Source of the DNA: Bacteroidota bacterium | Lineage (GTDB): Bacteria; Bacteroidota; Bacteroidia; Chitinophagales; Chitinophagaceae | NCBI GenBank assembly: GCA_018267705.1 | Contig: JAFDXX010000004.1 | Span: 186,001-250,000, forward strand | Reading direction: 5' to 3' | DNA: 64,000 bases | In this document: positions 2,143 to 8,279 of the stretch, one piece after another | How the letters are laid out: the number at the start of each line of letters is the position of its first letter | Numbering within the stretch: the first letter of the stretch is position 1 | Position numbers and translations under genes: made by a program | Notes under the pieces: generated by a model | Database searches by the model: none | The model's input: the letters and a program-made list of their open reading frames with translations, nothing else | What the model was told of the DNA's origin: nothing

Positions 2143-2150
2143 TATCTTTG
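2143..2150 (+). promoter_or_regulatory. Bacteroidota -7 box (TATCTTTG) for the metal cassette
   Basis: TATCTTTG matches the Bacteroidota housekeeping -7 consensus TAnnTTTG exactly. It ends four bases before the GTG start at 2155, so the transcript would have almost no 5' leader. No convincing -33 TTG was singled out. Confidence 0.6.
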
Positions 2151-2154
2151 CTAC

Positions 2155-2535
2155 GTGAAAAAATTTTTAATTTTTGCCTTATTAATTAGTTATAGCATTG
2201 CTTCGTTAGGAGTAAGTCTTAACTATTTTTATTGCTGCGGAAAATTAAAATCGGTTTCGGTACAAGTAAATAAAGAAACAACCAATTGCTCGGGAAAACT
2301 ATCAAAAGATTGTTGCGGAAATAAAACGGTAACACTGCAATTAAAAACAGACCAAAAAGAAAACAGTGTACTTAATTATCAATTTAATGCTTCAATTTCT
2401 CCTGCAATTATTTATATTAATAATTATGCAGTTTTAGGTAGTGCAGCTAATTGTACTCAAAAATTTTTTTACAAAAACCCTCCCGAGAAATATAATGCTT
2501 CTCTTAATGTTTTGTATTGCATTTATAGAATTTGA
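2155..2535 (+). CDS. HYC_CC_PP family small secreted Cys-rich protein
   Basis: This 126-residue protein has an N-terminal hydrophobic segment (residues 4-22), followed by FYCCGKLKSVSV, a KDCCGNK pair at 53-54 and a terminal NPPEK at about 108-112. That order (aromatic-Y-C, CC, PP) is the signature of the small HYC_CC_PP family of Bacteroidota, whose function is not established. The start is a GTG; no ATG lies nearer, and the -7 box directly upstream supports it. It is the first gene of a run with an HMA protein and an HMA-TonB receptor, and its cysteine pairs make a metal-handling role plausible, but that is inference from context. Confidence 0.8.
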   Translation: MKKFLIFALLISYSIASLGVSLNYFYCCGKLKSVSVQVNKETTNCSGKLSKDCCGNKTVTLQLKTDQKENSVLNYQFNASISPAIIYINNYAVLGSAANCTQKFFYKNPPEKYNASLNVLYCIYRI

Positions 2536-2624
2536 TTTATTGAATAAAAGAACACTGATTGTACAACATTTATAGGCTTAAATTTTCTTTATTCAACAAA
2601 AAATTATTCAAAAAAAATATAACA

Positions 2625-3011
2625 ATGAAAACACTAAAAATATTTTTAACTACATTATTTGCTATTACCATTTTTCAAGTTGTAAATGCATCAAACAAAA
2701 CAAATAAAACGGTTGCTGTTTATAATTACTCAACTACAGATACTTTTAAAGTATATGGAGAATGTGGTATGTGCAAAAGCCGTATAGAAAAAGCTGCACG
2801 TACTATTGACGGAGTGCAAACTGCTGTTTGGAATGTAGATACTAAAATACTTACCGTAACTTACGATAATACAAAAGATGCAGTAATTGATAATCTTCAA
2901 AAGAAAATGGCTGCTGTAGGGCATGATACTGAAAAATACAGAGCTACAGATGCTGCATATAATAACTTGCCAAAATGTTGCCATTACGATCGTAAAGCAG
3001 TTACCCAGTAA
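2625..3011 (+). CDS. Secreted heavy-metal-associated (HMA) domain protein
   Basis: The 128-residue product starts at the ATG at 2625; an in-frame TTG at 2559 would add an implausible lysine-rich leader before the signal peptide. Residues 1-22 form a signal peptide, so the domain should act in the periplasm. The HMA domain follows, with the metal-binding loop GECGMCKSR (cysteines 47 and 50) and the usual beta-alpha pattern up to AVGHDTE. After the domain comes KCCHYD at 117-122, an extra Cys-Cys-His motif. The next gene's N-terminus repeats the same layout, so the two are paralogous. Copper is the usual ligand of CxxC HMA domains, but the metal here is unproven. Confidence 0.85.
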   Translation: MKTLKIFLTTLFAITIFQVVNASNKTNKTVAVYNYSTTDTFKVYGECGMCKSRIEKAARTIDGVQTAVWNVDTKILTVTYDNTKDAVIDNLQKKMAAVGHDTEKYRATDAAYNNLPKCCHYDRKAVTQ

Positions 3012-3074
3012 TAATTTGTACATACATAATTAATAGGTATTAGGCAAAAGCTTAATACCTTAAAACTTTTTACA

Positions 3075-5636
3075 ATGAACAGAAAATTTATTGTAGCGGT
3101 TTTATGTATTGTAATAAATATTACTGCATCCGCTCAAAAGAAAAATACTAAAACAGAAACATTTAAAGTATATGGTACCTGCGAACAATGTAAAGATAGA
3201 ATTGAAAAAACTTTACAACATTATGGCATAAATAAAGCAGTGTGGAATATTGAAACAGGAATGCTTACCGTAACTTATGACAGCACAAAGTTTAATAAAC
3301 AAAAAATTGAAAAAAAATTAGCAGATGTTGGTCATGATACAGAAGACTTTCAGGCAAAAGACAACGTGTATAACAGTTTGCCGGAATGTTGCCATTATGA
3401 TAGATTTACGCAAGCACAACAACAACAAACTTCCGATACAATAGCAAGTAATATAAAAATTGTGCACACCATTACCGGAGTTGTTTTAGAAGAAGATAAA
3501 AAAGGAAAATTATTTCCACTTGTAAAAGCAACTATTCATAATTTAAATAATCATCATATAACAACAACCGATAGCTCCGGTGTTTTTCAGATAACAACAA
3601 CAGTTCCTGCAAAACTTGCTATAAGTTATGTAGGTTTCAATTCCGATACTATTCACATTGTTTCTCCCAACGAAATAAAAGTTGTTTTAAAAAATGCATC
3701 AACAGGGCATTTGCGTGAAGTGGTAGTTACAGCAAAAAATCAATCAACTTATGTTTCTTCTTTTAGTACATTTAATACATTAAATATTGGATCGAAAGAA
3801 TTAGCAAAAGCTGCATGTTGCAATCTTTCAGAAAGTTTTGAAACAAGCCCTTCGATAGATGTAAGTTATACCGATGCAGTAATTGGTATAAAACAAATTC
3901 AGTTATTAGGTTTATCGGGAAACTATACACAACTACTTACAGAAAATACTCCTGAAATAAAAGGGCTTGCAGGAAGTTACGGACTTACATTTATTCCCGG
4001 CCCATGGATTGAAGGCATACAAATAACAAAAGGTGTTGGCTCAGTAGTAAATGGTTATGAAAGTATTGCAGGGCAAATAAATATTGAAGAAAAGAAACCG
4101 GATAAATCAGATAAACTTTTTGTAAATACTTACATTAATACATTAGGAAGAATGGAGGCAACCGTTAATCTTTCTTCGGTATTAAACGATAAATGGAGTA
4201 CAGCATTACTTACACACGCCAATGGAGTGAATACAAAAGTGGATGATAACCATGATGGGTTTTTAGATATCTCTTTAGGAAGACAATTTAATGTGATAAA
4301 CCGTTGGAAATATGCAGATGCCAACGGAATTATTGCACAATTTTCTATTAAAGCATTAAATGATAAAAGGCAAGCAGGGCAAATAAATTTTAATCCATCA
4401 ACCGATAAATTAACTACTAATAATTACGGTGTAGGTATTGATGTGCAGCAATATGGTGTTACAGGAAAACTAGGGTATGTGTTTCCACAACAAAAATATA
4501 AAAGCATAGGTTTTATATTTTCTGCAAACAATTATAACAACAATTCATATTATGGATTAACTAAATATGATGGAAAACAAAATTCTATTTATACCAATTT
4601 AATTTATCAATCAATTATAGGAACAACTATGCATAAATTTCGTACAGGTTTAAGTTTTGCAAACGATAATTATAACGAAACTTTTAATGCAATTAATTAT
4701 AATAGAATTGAAACAGTATCGGGTGCATTTTTTGAATATACTTATACTGGTGAAAAGTTTTCTGCTATTGCAGGTATAAGAGAAGATTATCATAACCAAT
4801 ACGGATGGATAACAACTCCGCGTTTACATTTAAAATATGATTTTAGTCCTAAAACAAATCTTCGTTTTTCGGTTGGTTCGGGTTTTAGAGTAGCAGATAT
4901 TTTTGCAGAAAATGCAGGTGTATTTGTTAGTTCAAGAACATATAGTATTCTTAATTCAACATCAAATTACGGTTATGGATTAAGCCCTGAAAAAGCTTGG
5001 AATTTTGGAATGAATTTTATTCATAATTTCAAATTAAATAATCATTCCGGTTCTTTTAGTGTAGATGTTTATAGAACTAATTTTGATAATCAAGTAGTGG
5101 TTGATGTTGATGCAAGCCCGCAAAAAATTCTTTTTTATAATTTAAATGGAAAATCTTTTTCAAACAGTATTCAAGCAGAAATAAATTATGAAATAGCAAA
5201 AAAATTTGATGTTCGTTTAGCATATCGTTGGTTAGATGTACAAACAAATTATAATGGCACAATGCTTGAAAAACCTTTGGTAGCAAAAGATAGAGCTTTT
5301 GTGAATTTTGCATACGAAACCAATAATCATTGGAAGTTTGATTATACGGTGCAATGGTTTAGTAAAAAAAGATTGCCTAATACAAGCGGTAATCCGATTG
5401 TATATCAGTTTGAAAATTATTCTCCTTCTTATTTTCAAATGAGTACTCAAATAACCAAACAAATTAATAATAAATGGGATATATATGTTGGTGCAGAAAA
5501 CTTAACCAACTATATGCAGAAAAATTTAATTATAGCAGCGGCACAACCCTTTAGTCAATATTTTGATGGTTCTATAACTTGGGGGCCGGTTAATGGAAGA
5601 ATTATTTATTTAGGGTTACGTTTTAAAATTAAATAG
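3075..5636 (+). CDS. TonB-dependent outer-membrane receptor with N-terminal HMA domain
   Basis: The order of parts in this 853-residue receptor is: signal peptide (1-20), HMA domain with CEQC at 36-39, a CCHYDR motif at 105-110, a carboxypeptidase-regulatory-like beta domain (about 133-210), a TonB-box-like VVVTA at 216-220, a plug domain, and a 22-strand-type barrel ending in GLRFKIK. The plug carries KAACCNLSES at 245-254, the opening of a strongly conserved plug segment (SFETSPSIDV, then VNGYESIAGQINIE). The HMA module closely matches the separate protein encoded just upstream. A receptor with its own periplasmic metal-binding domain suggests uptake of a metal or metal complex, perhaps copper. 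The substrate is inferred, not shown. Confidence 0.88.
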   Translation: MNRKFIVAVLCIVINITASAQKKNTKTETFKVYGTCEQCKDRIEKTLQHYGINKAVWNIETGMLTVTYDSTKFNKQKIEKKLADVGHDTEDFQAKDNVYNSLPECCHYDRFTQAQQQQTSDTIASNIKIVHTITGVVLEEDKKGKLFPLVKATIHNLNNHHITTTDSSGVFQITTTVPAKLAISYVGFNSDTIHIVSPNEIKVVLKNASTGHLREVVVTAKNQSTYVSSFSTFNTLNIGSKELAKAACCNLSESFETSPSIDVSYTDAVIGIKQIQLLGLSGNYTQLLTENTPEIKGLAGSYGLTFIPGPWIEGIQITKGVGSVVNGYESIAGQINIEEKKPDKSDKLFVNTYINTLGRMEATVNLSSVLNDKWSTALLTHANGVNTKVDDNHDGFLDISLGRQFNVINRWKYADANGIIAQFSIKALNDKRQAGQINFNPSTDKLTTNNYGVGIDVQQYGVTGKLGYVFPQQKYKSIGFIFSANNYNNNSYYGLTKYDGKQNSIYTNLIYQSIIGTTMHKFRTGLSFANDNYNETFNAINYNRIETVSGAFFEYTYTGEKFSAIAGIREDYHNQYGWITTPRLHLKYDFSPKTNLRFSVGSGFRVADIFAENAGVFVSSRTYSILNSTSNYGYGLSPEKAWNFGMNFIHNFKLNNHSGSFSVDVYRTNFDNQVVVDVDASPQKILFYNLNGKSFSNSIQAEINYEIAKKFDVRLAYRWLDVQTNYNGTMLEKPLVAKDRAFVNFAYETNNHWKFDYTVQWFSKKRLPNTSGNPIVYQFENYSPSYFQMSTQITKQINNKWDIYVGAENLTNYMQKNLIIAAAQPFSQYFDGSITWGPVNGRIIYLGLRFKIK

Positions 5637-5644
5637 CTAAATAA

Positions 5645-5672
5645 AAATCCCCGAATATTATTTCGGGGATTT
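5645..5672. terminator. Intrinsic terminator between convergent genes
   Basis: Perfect 11-bp stem, AAATCCCCGAA with TTCGGGGATTT, around a 6-base loop. T-rich on the plus side and A-rich before it, so it can serve both the HMA-TonB receptor gene and the convergent CWC gene. Confidence 0.85.
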
Positions 5673-5679
5673 TGGTTTT

Positions 5680-5895
5680 TCATTCTAAACTTATTTTTTT
5701 CTTTAATAGTTGGTATTGTTGTTTTAGTTTGTGCATACAATGAATGCACAAACAATCTGTGTATATGCTTTCAAAATATATTTTTTCTTCATAGCTTAAT
5801 TGTATTTGATAGCATTGACATTCTAACACATTGCCTACTTTACACTCAAAAATGTTATTGCATTGTGGGCATTTTTTATTTTCATGTTGTGCCAT
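5680..5895 (-). CDS. Cysteine-rich CWC family protein
   Basis: This 71-residue protein has the CWC spacing: CPQCNNIFECK, then CQCY, then DCLCIHCMHKL, giving eight clustered cysteines in three groups that probably bind zinc or another metal. A short Lys/Leu helix ends the protein. The biochemical role of the family is unknown. It lies 27 bases after the stop of the BtuB-like receptor on the same strand, so it may be the last gene of the cobalamin-controlled transcript. It faces the upstream metal receptor gene across a shared terminator. Confidence 0.8.
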   Translation of the reverse strand: MAQHENKKCPQCNNIFECKVGNVLECQCYQIQLSYEEKIYFESIYTDCLCIHCMHKLKQQYQLLKKKISLE

Positions 5896-5922: not shown

Positions 5923-7848
5923 TTACCAATTAACTGTTATACCTGCATTAAATAAAAATGGAATTGAGTTATATCCTCGCACATCAAAAAACTTTTTGTT
6001 GGTTATATTTTGTGCATCGACAAATACTTTAAAACTATTATTGAAAGTATATTCTGCATTGGCTCCTACAATAAAATAATCATTTAATAAAACATCGGCT
6101 ACCCCATATCCGCCAACATCATACCTGCTGCTAACAAACTTTCCATTTACTGAAATATATAATTGCTTAATTGGCTCAACTGCAATAGTTATGTTTACAC
6201 TGTTTTTAGGCCTGCGTAATAAATAATTATAAGTAACGGTATCATGATTAGTAATTCTGTTTTGTGTGGTTTCGTTGGCTGCAATAAATGTATAGTTGGC
6301 AATAATGTTTACTTTATTAAACGGTTTGTAACTTACTTCATATTCTATTCCATTAACAATTTGTTTAATATAGTTAAAGTATTTAAAAGTGATGTAGTTG
6401 TAATCAATTCCGTTATCAATAGCTCTGTTAAAAAATACTATTCTAGTGCTTATGTTTTTATTTTTCAACTGAATACCTGCTTCATAATTTACTGATTTTT
6501 CAGGAAGCAATAATGAATTAATACTTAGTTGATAAAGACTTGGAGCTTTAAATCCGCTTGCTATACTTCCAAAAACTCTCCATTGTTCATTAATATTATA
6601 GGATGGATTGAAAGTGTATGTGTAGTTGCTGCCGTATCTGCTGTGTGTATTTAATCTTCCGCCTAATTCAACATTAAATTTTTTATTTGCATTGGCAAAA
6701 TATAAAGAAGCATACATAGAAGTTTGACTTACAGATGTATCTCTAAAAGTGCTACTATATAGGCCGGAAATGCTTACAGAATTATAATAGTTATTGTAAG
6801 AACCATATCTATAATCTGCACCACTTAATAAATTAAAACCACTGCCTAAATTAATATGCGTATATAATTCTGCAAATTGGCTAATAGCATTATAATCATT
6901 TAAAGAAAACAATGAATTTCCTGCACTATAATTATCATCATATACACGTTTAGATTTTGTGTATTGATAATTACCTGTTACACTTACGGCATCATTTTTA
7001 AAAGTAAAGCCTGCACCACTGTTGCTGCTTCTGTTGTTAATAAAATAAAATGTTTTATCTGCAAATGGCCCTGCATCAATATCGGCTTTATATTGGCTGA
7101 ACATTGTAAATGCTTTGAATGATAGTTGATTATTTGCCTGATATTGAATAGCAGCATTAGCCATATTACCATCATAACCATCCTTATCAAAATTTTTTGT
7201 GCCGGTACTGTCATAAGCACTTGAAAAACCATTTGTTTTTAATTTAGAATAACGTACTGAATAAGTAAGTTTATCTACTTTTCCAAATAACTGCACACTA
7301 CCTTTATATGTATTTAAGTTACCTGCCGTTAACGTTGCTTTGCCACCCAAAGCCTTATTAATATTAGGTTTTACAGTTATAATATTTATAACACCCGCAA
7401 TGGCATCACTTCCGTATAAAGTGCTTTGAGCTCCTTTACATATTTCAATTTTTTCTATATCGTTAATAGAAAACAAATTCAAATCGTAATCATTATTAAT
7501 TTGTGATGGATCGTTTACCGGAATACCATCAATTAATATTAATGTTCTTCCGGCGTTAGCCCCACGCATAAAAACAGTTTGTACGCTGCCTGCATTATTT
7601 AATGCACCATTAATGGTAATACCGGCTTGTTCATTTAATAACTGTGTAACTGTTTTACTTGAGCTGTGTTCAATTTGCTCTTTAGTAATTACGGTAATTA
7701 CTTTTCCTGTTTGAGATTGTTTTTGTTCAATCTTATTGGCAGTTACTACAACAGGGTCTAAAGTTTTTCCTGTTAGTGTGTCTTTGTTTTGTGCAGCAAC
7801 AGTTAATGTTGCACTGCTTGTAAGGATGGCTAAAAATTTCTTGCTCAT
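5923..7848 (-). CDS. BtuB-like TonB-dependent receptor, cobalamin-regulated
   Basis: The 641-residue receptor has a signal peptide (1-19), a TonB box DPVVVTA at 31-37, a plug with LIDGIPVNDP and GAQSTLYGSDAIAGVINI, and a barrel ending in the aromatic strand FNAGITVNW. The length and compact plug, without a carboxypeptidase-like domain, are those of BtuB-type receptors. The leader carries a cobalamin riboswitch, strong support for vitamin B12 or cobinamide as substrate. Its ATG overlaps the stop of a possible 31-codon upstream ORF (ATGA). No btuCDF genes are in the window. The gene downstream is a small CWC protein. I leave the symbol empty because btuB is only the nearest functional analogue. 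Confidence 0.9.
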   Translation of the reverse strand: MSKKFLAILTSSATLTVAAQNKDTLTGKTLDPVVVTANKIEQKQSQTGKVITVITKEQIEHSSSKTVTQLLNEQAGITINGALNNAGSVQTVFMRGANAGRTLILIDGIPVNDPSQINNDYDLNLFSINDIEKIEICKGAQSTLYGSDAIAGVINIITVKPNINKALGGKATLTAGNLNTYKGSVQLFGKVDKLTYSVRYSKLKTNGFSSAYDSTGTKNFDKDGYDGNMANAAIQYQANNQLSFKAFTMFSQYKADIDAGPFADKTFYFINNRSSNSGAGFTFKNDAVSVTGNYQYTKSKRVYDDNYSAGNSLFSLNDYNAISQFAELYTHINLGSGFNLLSGADYRYGSYNNYYNSVSISGLYSSTFRDTSVSQTSMYASLYFANANKKFNVELGGRLNTHSRYGSNYTYTFNPSYNINEQWRVFGSIASGFKAPSLYQLSINSLLLPEKSVNYEAGIQLKNKNISTRIVFFNRAIDNGIDYNYITFKYFNYIKQIVNGIEYEVSYKPFNKVNIIANYTFIAANETTQNRITNHDTVTYNYLLRRPKNSVNITIAVEPIKQLYISVNGKFVSSRYDVGGYGVADVLLNDYFIVGANAEYTFNNSFKVFVDAQNITNKKFFDVRGYNSIPFLFNAGITVNW

Positions 7849-7940: not shown

Positions 7941-7977
7941 CTCCGGCCTTTCACCCGAAAGCTCGTTGATAATTGTT

Positions 7978-8188
7978 GGAAGTTTGGCAGGTCTTCTGGC
8001 TTGTTGAACTAATGAATGCCTTCCCGCAAATAAAGCAGTGGCGTAGGTTTCATTAGTGTAGTTGTTTTCGATAATCAGAAATAATATTCATGATTATCGA
8101 TTCATAATTTTCAACTTTACAGCTACGGGGATAGCTCACGATTGTAACGTGATTCCCTTTTAATCCCGAAATATCAGGAACCAAATCC
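7978..8188 (-). promoter_or_regulatory. Cobalamin riboswitch (B12 element)
   Basis: Read on the minus strand, the conserved B12 parts occur in order: AAAAGGGAATC after the P2 hairpin, CCCCGTAGCTGTAA, the B12 box GCCACTG followed after eight bases by GGGAAGGC, and AGCCAGAAGACCTGCC. The ends close with a P1 helix pairing TTTGG at the 5' end with CCAAA at the 3' end, flanked by GGA and TTCC. An optional hairpin sits in the variable region near 8055-8105. It lies in the leader of the BtuB-like receptor and should lower receptor expression when adenosylcobalamin is plentiful. The leader after the aptamer is about 130 bases; no U-tract terminator is evident there, so control is more likely at translation. 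Confidence 0.93.
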
Positions 8189-8279
8189 GCTGCAAATGTA
8201 ATAGGCATTTTTTTGTATAAAAATTTTCTTTCGCACAGTTGTTTAACATTGGTTATTTTTCATCTCAATTAAATCACTT

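Follow-up and report, generated by a model that had tools for sequence, protein, structure and literature searches.

A conserved Bacteroidota gene cassette pairs a TonB-dependent receptor with a free or fused HMA module and may serve copper acquisition

Results and Discussion

A three-gene operon

Within a 64,000-nucleotide (nt) stretch of a Chitinophagaceae genome (GenBank assembly GCA_018267705.1, contig JAFDXX010000004.1, positions 186,001 to 250,000, forward strand; hereafter the window), positions 2143–5673 are a single compact transcription unit, in which genes for an HYC_CC_PP family protein, a free HMA protein and a TonB-dependent receptor follow one another up to a terminator (Table 1). 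The HMA domain with its C-terminal Cys-Cys (CC) tail, called the HMA-CC module below, occurs twice, as the free protein and as the N-terminus of the receptor. A preliminary description of this DNA had listed the motifs shared by the two copies (DTFKVYG/ETFKVYG, CxxC, LTVTYD, VGHDTE and CCHYDR), a Cys-Cys in the receptor plug and a third small Cys-rich protein leading the run. Every one of these motifs is present at its reported position, and the leading protein is the HYC_CC_PP member. The same arrangement is conserved in other genomes, which excludes a chance arrangement.

The genes are separated by 89 nt (HYC/free HMA) and 63 nt (free HMA/receptor). Since the –7 promoter box lies only four nt before the start codon, the HYC mRNA is suggested to be leaderless. 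A TAnnTTTG element ends within 12 nt of the start in 39/90 HYC-type genes, compared with 31/1260 control open reading frames (ORFs); HYC-type genes appear to be often translated from leaderless mRNA, and the cassettes L032–L171 suggest that this is a conserved trait of their HYC genes. No palindromic regulator site shared among the regions upstream of HYC genes was found.

Table 1. Features of the cassette (window coordinates)
Feature	Position	Strand	Remarks
Bacteroidota –7 promoter box TATCTTTG	2143–2150	+	four nt before GTG 2155
HYC_CC_PP family protein, 126 amino acids (aa), GTG start	2155–2535	+	signal-like helix, then Cys-rich short beta region
Free periplasmic HMA protein with CC-HYD tail, 128 aa, ATG start (predicted)	2625–3011	+	PF00403, 35.7 bits
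CxxC (C47-G-M-C50) of free module	2763–2774	+	
C118-C119 of CCHYD tail, free module	2976–2981	+	
TonB-dependent receptor, 853 aa, N-terminal HMA-CC module	3075–5636	+	conserved family
HMA-CC module fused to receptor	3156–3404	+	C36xxC39 and C105-C106-HYDR
CarboxypepD_reg_2-like domain	3471–3728	+	31.3 bits, just below Pfam cut-off of 32.2
Plug domain	3780–4073	+	di-cysteine C248-C249 at 3816–3821
His381 of barrel	4215–4217	+	kept in 113/115 receptors; candidate ligand
Intrinsic terminator hairpin, 12 bp	5644–5673	+	closes the unit

The HYC protein is a borderline match to NF047658, scoring 28 bits, exactly the cut-off, and 27.0 in a six-frame search. It has the same HYC-like, CC and PP motifs as that family; among 60 relatives C27, C53 and C54 are invariant, and C45 and P109 nearly so. 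Its AlphaFold2 model (mean predicted local distance difference test score, pLDDT, 69.5; predicted template modelling score 0.40) is confident for residues 1–40 and not in the second half. A comparison of this low-confidence model with the PDB gave no meaningful structural match, and no sequence match was found there. NF047658 has no recorded function, whereas here the protein is tied to an HMA-CC module and a receptor.

The HMA-CC module

The free protein was listed as a 150-aa ORF that begins at an upstream TTG; the likely true start is the ATG at 2625. It carries C47xxC50, LTVTYD, VGHDTE and C118-C119-HYDR, and the fused module also has LTVTYD and VGHDTE. Both copies belong to the HMA family, as both contain CxxC and exceed the PF00403 cut-off of 24.8 bits (35.7 for the free protein, 29.4 for the receptor). 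The CopZ, MerP and TIGR00003 chaperone models gave at best 28–31 bits against cut-offs of at least 62. Identity between the two modules is 50% across the full match and 56% for the trimmed module; at E ≤ 0.01 the 2.63-Mb genome contains no others.

C47, C50, C118 and C119 are invariant in 63 aligned modules, the tail cysteines being conserved as strongly as the CxxC. The HMA fold of the free module is modelled with confidence (pLDDT about 95–98 over residues 41–120) and the CC tail is predicted to be ordered, with block means of 97–98. The nearest fold is CopZ (2qif; Z 11.0, 1.2 Å over 68 residues). None of the known folds listed in this comparison aligned to residues 105–125, which is not evidence of a new fold. 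A four-thiol site built from the CxxC and the CC tail is plausible. HMA-CC has the fold and CxxC site of CopZ, Atx1 and MerP (PF00403) but, unlike them, is a predicted secreted protein with an ordered C-terminal CC tail, and is either the partner of a TonB receptor or part of one.

A further form of the module is fused to a DUF3347-like domain in proteins of about 290 aa (L016, L019, L027, L083, L089), several of which adjoin another small Cys-rich protein that ends in PPKIS.

The TonB-dependent receptor

The receptor matches PF00593 (barrel, 88.8 bits, cut-off 27) and PF07715 (plug, 23.9 bits, equal to the cut-off). The domain between the module and the plug, slightly short of its Pfam cut-off, is also supported by alignment to the N-termini of SusC and 9gbc. 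From the topology of the TonB receptor family, the fused module, which precedes this CarboxypepD-like domain and the probable Ton box, would lie in the periplasm.

The plug di-cysteine is part of a KAACC motif that is invariant in 24/24 aligned receptors, and the CC was present in 35/40 loci chosen without that motif; its invariance in a set of 115 receptors is circular, because the CC was used to pick them. C248-C249 follows the likely Ton box by ~20 residues and, when the receptor is aligned to 9gbc, falls where the first plug helix starts, which would place it on the N-terminal side of the plug, near the periplasm. His381 played no part in the selection of the receptors. Close to it, the barrel contains a conserved, calcium-binding-like DxNxDGFxD loop (residues 390–398, 4242–4268). 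The vitamin B12 receptor model TIGR01779 gave 28.1 bits (cut-off 599.7), which sets the protein apart from that family.

Conservation across Bacteroidota

The free protein, NF047658 and the receptor body served as queries against an evenly drawn sample of 296 Bacteroidota genomes, and the positions of their matches were compared; apart from the receptor tree, the counts by genome carry no correction for shared ancestry. At a cut that we set at about E ≤ 1e-70, the receptor was found in 77/296 genomes. An HMA-CC module lies within 5 kb of it in 56/77, always on the same strand, and an HYC_CC_PP match in 45/77, again all on the same strand; both partners are present in 41. Fourteen modules adjoin an HYC gene without this receptor. 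Among named genomes picked by their receptor, 72/73 complete neighbourhoods contain the module and 68/73 an HYC-type gene. The gene order is HYC–HMA–receptor in most cases and HYC–receptor–HMA in Flavobacteriaceae. The co-occurrence of the three families, which the preliminary description had proposed to look for and whose absence it would have taken as refuting its reading, is therefore a conserved association, and its metal cassette is a real, conserved unit.

Two variants of the cassette were seen along the way. Some Flavobacteriaceae encode an HMA-MauE membrane protein of roughly 250 aa within the cassette or beside the receptor (L160, L163, L165, L167); the L165 protein matches PF00403 and PF07291. 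The human gut commensal Parabacteroides distasonis has a Cys-rich protein, a CC-plug receptor and an HMA protein in a row (L181, NZ_OY725762.1 42597–45887).

Free or fused

We scored 60 neighbourhoods, mostly chosen for module proximity, and 80 named receptor loci with our own profiles. Of the 108 whose upstream sequence was intact, 64 have the module only free, 38 only fused, 4 in both forms (the window included) and 2 not at all; fused receptors are over-represented in these counts, since the 80 loci were found by the plug-CC motif and ranked by likeness to the fused query. An HYC-type Cys-rich gene is present in 100/108. The free and fused forms seldom occur together (Fisher p 4e-22, without correction for common descent), and the receptor tree requires at least six changes of state. 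This alternation is a Rosetta-stone pattern: a neighbouring gene and a fused domain that replace each other are a classic sign of two proteins working on one step. In Chitinophagaceae and Sphingobacterium the fused receptors make up one large clade, where a free copy is mostly absent; separate cases are a Chryseobacterium-like family with two tandem modules, Saprospiraceae-like genomes and L128. Both forms occur in the window, L041, L097, L110 and L114.

The preliminary description had derived the two copies from a tandem duplication followed by fusion of one copy to the receptor. We built trees from 143 modules and from a careful set of 64, with few (ninety) alignment columns. On the 64-module tree, the fused module of the window falls among other fused modules (96/93); its free module is placed, with weak support (90/33), with a free module from the same family (L072, 61% identity) that lies beside an HYC gene and a CusA-type pump. 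The free copies of L097, L110 and L114 likewise cluster together, apart from their own fused partners. The receptor–module fusion is old and common to the large Chitinophagaceae/Sphingobacterium clade. Because of this age and breadth, and because the free copy groups with a pump-associated module, the trees lend the duplication no support; a tree with the two window modules as sisters is not rejected by approximately unbiased tests (p 0.19 for the 64-module set, 0.87 for the larger set), so the duplication is not disproved.

Genomic context and the likely metal

The gene context points to copper as the likeliest metal, because Cu(I)-type CusA pumps or P1B-1 ATPases often adjoin receptor-less modules, and such ATPases and other copper-type partners sit inside some cassettes. 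Many receptor-less modules adjoin genes for CusA, CusB-DUF3347 and CPMHP-bearing ATPases. The three methionines with which Escherichia coli CusA binds Cu(I) (PMC11213822) are kept in 5/5 aligned CusA proteins from beside receptor-less modules. HMBD and HMA-MauE proteins occur inside cassettes, and most of the best matches of the module among solved structures come from Cu(I) chaperones and domains of Cu ATPases. ATPases with CPC, YN and MSxSS motifs, which we take to be the P1B-1 signature of Cu(I) ATPases, are encoded between the HYC and receptor genes in L042 and L169 and nearby in L099 and L171.

The co-occurrence of the cassette with heme-copper oxidases was considered as a sign of copper and set aside, as the oxidase family is present in 283/296 genomes and does not discriminate. 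The window genome also encodes such oxidases; one oxidase gene (C15:312747–316262) adjoins a P-type ATPase with a CPC motif, an arrangement that is usual for a cbb3 oxidase and its copper-supply ATPase.

A model of copper import with a dedicated chaperone

We put the probability at about 0.58 that the three genes constitute an operon for outer-membrane copper acquisition with a dedicated periplasmic chaperone; more broadly, we infer from the sequences a system of TonB-dependent metal import whose periplasmic chaperone is sometimes covalently attached. The receptor would use TonB energy to import copper or a copper chelate, and HMA-CC would be the chaperone. Metal leaving the plug would move onto HMA-CC, probably through exchange between the thiols of the plug Cys-Cys and those of the CxxC/CC site, and HMA-CC would deliver it to targets in the periplasm or inner membrane. 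The HYC protein would probably be one more metal protein of this periplasmic route, small and rich in Cys. Most Bacteroidota would make the chaperone as a protein of its own, encoded in the operon of the receptor; tethering to the receptor, as in Chitinophagaceae, Sphingobacterium and a few others, would make the hand-off intramolecular. The free copy of the window may shuttle metal onward or buffer excess, because its type elsewhere adjoins CusA-type pumps. An earlier proposal that the free copy is a soluble carrier exchanging metal with the receptor stands in its first part, a periplasmic carrier that works with the receptor being the best reading, while the hand-off itself is inferred.

The more detailed route, a new Bacteroidota TonB copper pathway that runs from the barrel to the plug di-cysteine, from there to a four-thiol CxxC/CC site and onward with the aid of an HYC-type protein, we offer as tentative. 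Little is known of how the periplasm receives metals that come in through TonB receptors, and few studies have dealt with copper acquisition in Bacteroidota; with a chaperone built into the receptor, the hand-off could be tested on a single polypeptide, and the alternation of free and fused forms across the phylum directly predicts the partner. If correct, the model would give a role to two widespread families that have merely been named, HYC_CC_PP and the CC-tailed HMA proteins.

Several findings weigh against this model. No Met or further Cys is conserved in the receptor, where only His381 and His520 are, so that free Cu(I) is not obviously its ligand. The plug CC motif is missing from 5/40 loci, the Parabacteroides distasonis module has no CC tail, and 17/77 receptors, mostly divergent (mostly below ~42% identity), have neither neighbour. 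Binding of Zn, Hg or Cd is also known for HMA domains, and the matches include ZiaA and MerP. Finally, efflux genes also neighbour the cassette families, so that a role in tolerance fits part of the context.

On such a tolerance reading, HMA-CC and HYC would capture surplus Cu(I) in the periplasm for delivery to CusCBA or CopA, the receptor being an accessory for chelator recovery or metal sensing. Receptor-less modules do sit in CusA, CusB-DUF3347 and CopA clusters, the free copy of the window has a pump-linked module as its closest relative, and a CusA/CzcA pump on a Haliscomenobacter plasmid has a related receptor upstream. The L041 receptor cassette, too, shares a cluster with a pump, which is CzcA-like and lacks the methionine set. 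Most cassettes, however, including that of the window, have no adjoining pump, the fusion of module and receptor points to a role at the receptor, and TonB-dependent receptors are importers as a rule; we consider tolerance unlikely as the main function. That the same hand-off imports a different soft metal (zinc or nickel) or a metallophore (a thiol or peptide chelate) seems to us to have a small chance of being right: HMA domains are not metal-specific, Zn-ATPase domains are among the matches, and P1B-2-like ATPases are encoded in two module-only loci (L073, L084), but the partners are predominantly of the copper type, and Cu(I)-type signatures are found repeatedly within cassettes. That HMA-CC is a regulatory domain, in which metal binding controls Ton box exposure or shuts the receptor at high periplasmic copper, is improbable, for although it stands just before the CarboxypepD-like domain and the Ton box, and N-terminal extensions of some other TonB receptors act in signalling, it is mostly a separate secreted protein, encoded downstream in Flavobacteriaceae, which suits a carrier better.

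Comparison with known systems

Copper import with a dedicated chaperone can be set beside CusF/CusCBA. CusF and HMA-CC are both small periplasmic Cu(I) carriers, the latter putatively, encoded beside CusA. Unlike CusF, whose fold is a barrel, HMA-CC is ferredoxin-like and in Bacteroidota also pairs with a receptor.

OprC, a TonB-dependent copper importer of Pseudomonas aeruginosa, binds Cu through C143xxxM147 of the plug and H323xM325 of the barrel (PMC8610252). Like OprC, the window receptor is TonB-dependent, with proposed copper import and with a plug cysteine and a barrel His implicated in metal binding. Its sequence contains neither the CxxxM motif in the plug nor the HxM motif in the barrel, which separates it from the OprC type; its di-cysteine lies near the N-terminus of the plug, and no HMA domain has been described for OprC. 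CrtA/BfrG, a copper TonB-dependent transporter of Bordetella pertussis, has an essential invariant His and serves heme-copper oxidases (PMC12914433), which the window genome also has. The paper mentions no HMA module or HYC partner, and its sole mention of Bacteroidota concerns BtuB (PMC12914433).

A paper on copper in Bizionia names only an OprC-like receptor for copper uptake. The TonB receptors listed as regulated in a ZntR paper on Riemerella anatipestifer could not be matched to this receptor family. We found no literature on HYC_CC_PP, this receptor family or HMA-fused TonB receptors in a search that left most subscription journals outside; this agrees with the remark in the preliminary description that the roles of HYC_CC_PP and the CC tail are undescribed.

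Neighbouring genes

Two genes beyond the terminator, for a CWC protein and a BtuB-like receptor, were considered as members of the unit and excluded, as they are on the minus strand and convergent with the cassette. The Cys-rich CWC protein (71 aa, 5680–5895, –; PF14375, 39.3 bits) lies between the terminator and the BtuB-like TonB receptor (5923–7848, –), which is preceded by a cobalamin riboswitch (RF00174, 85.8 bits, 7969–8200, –).

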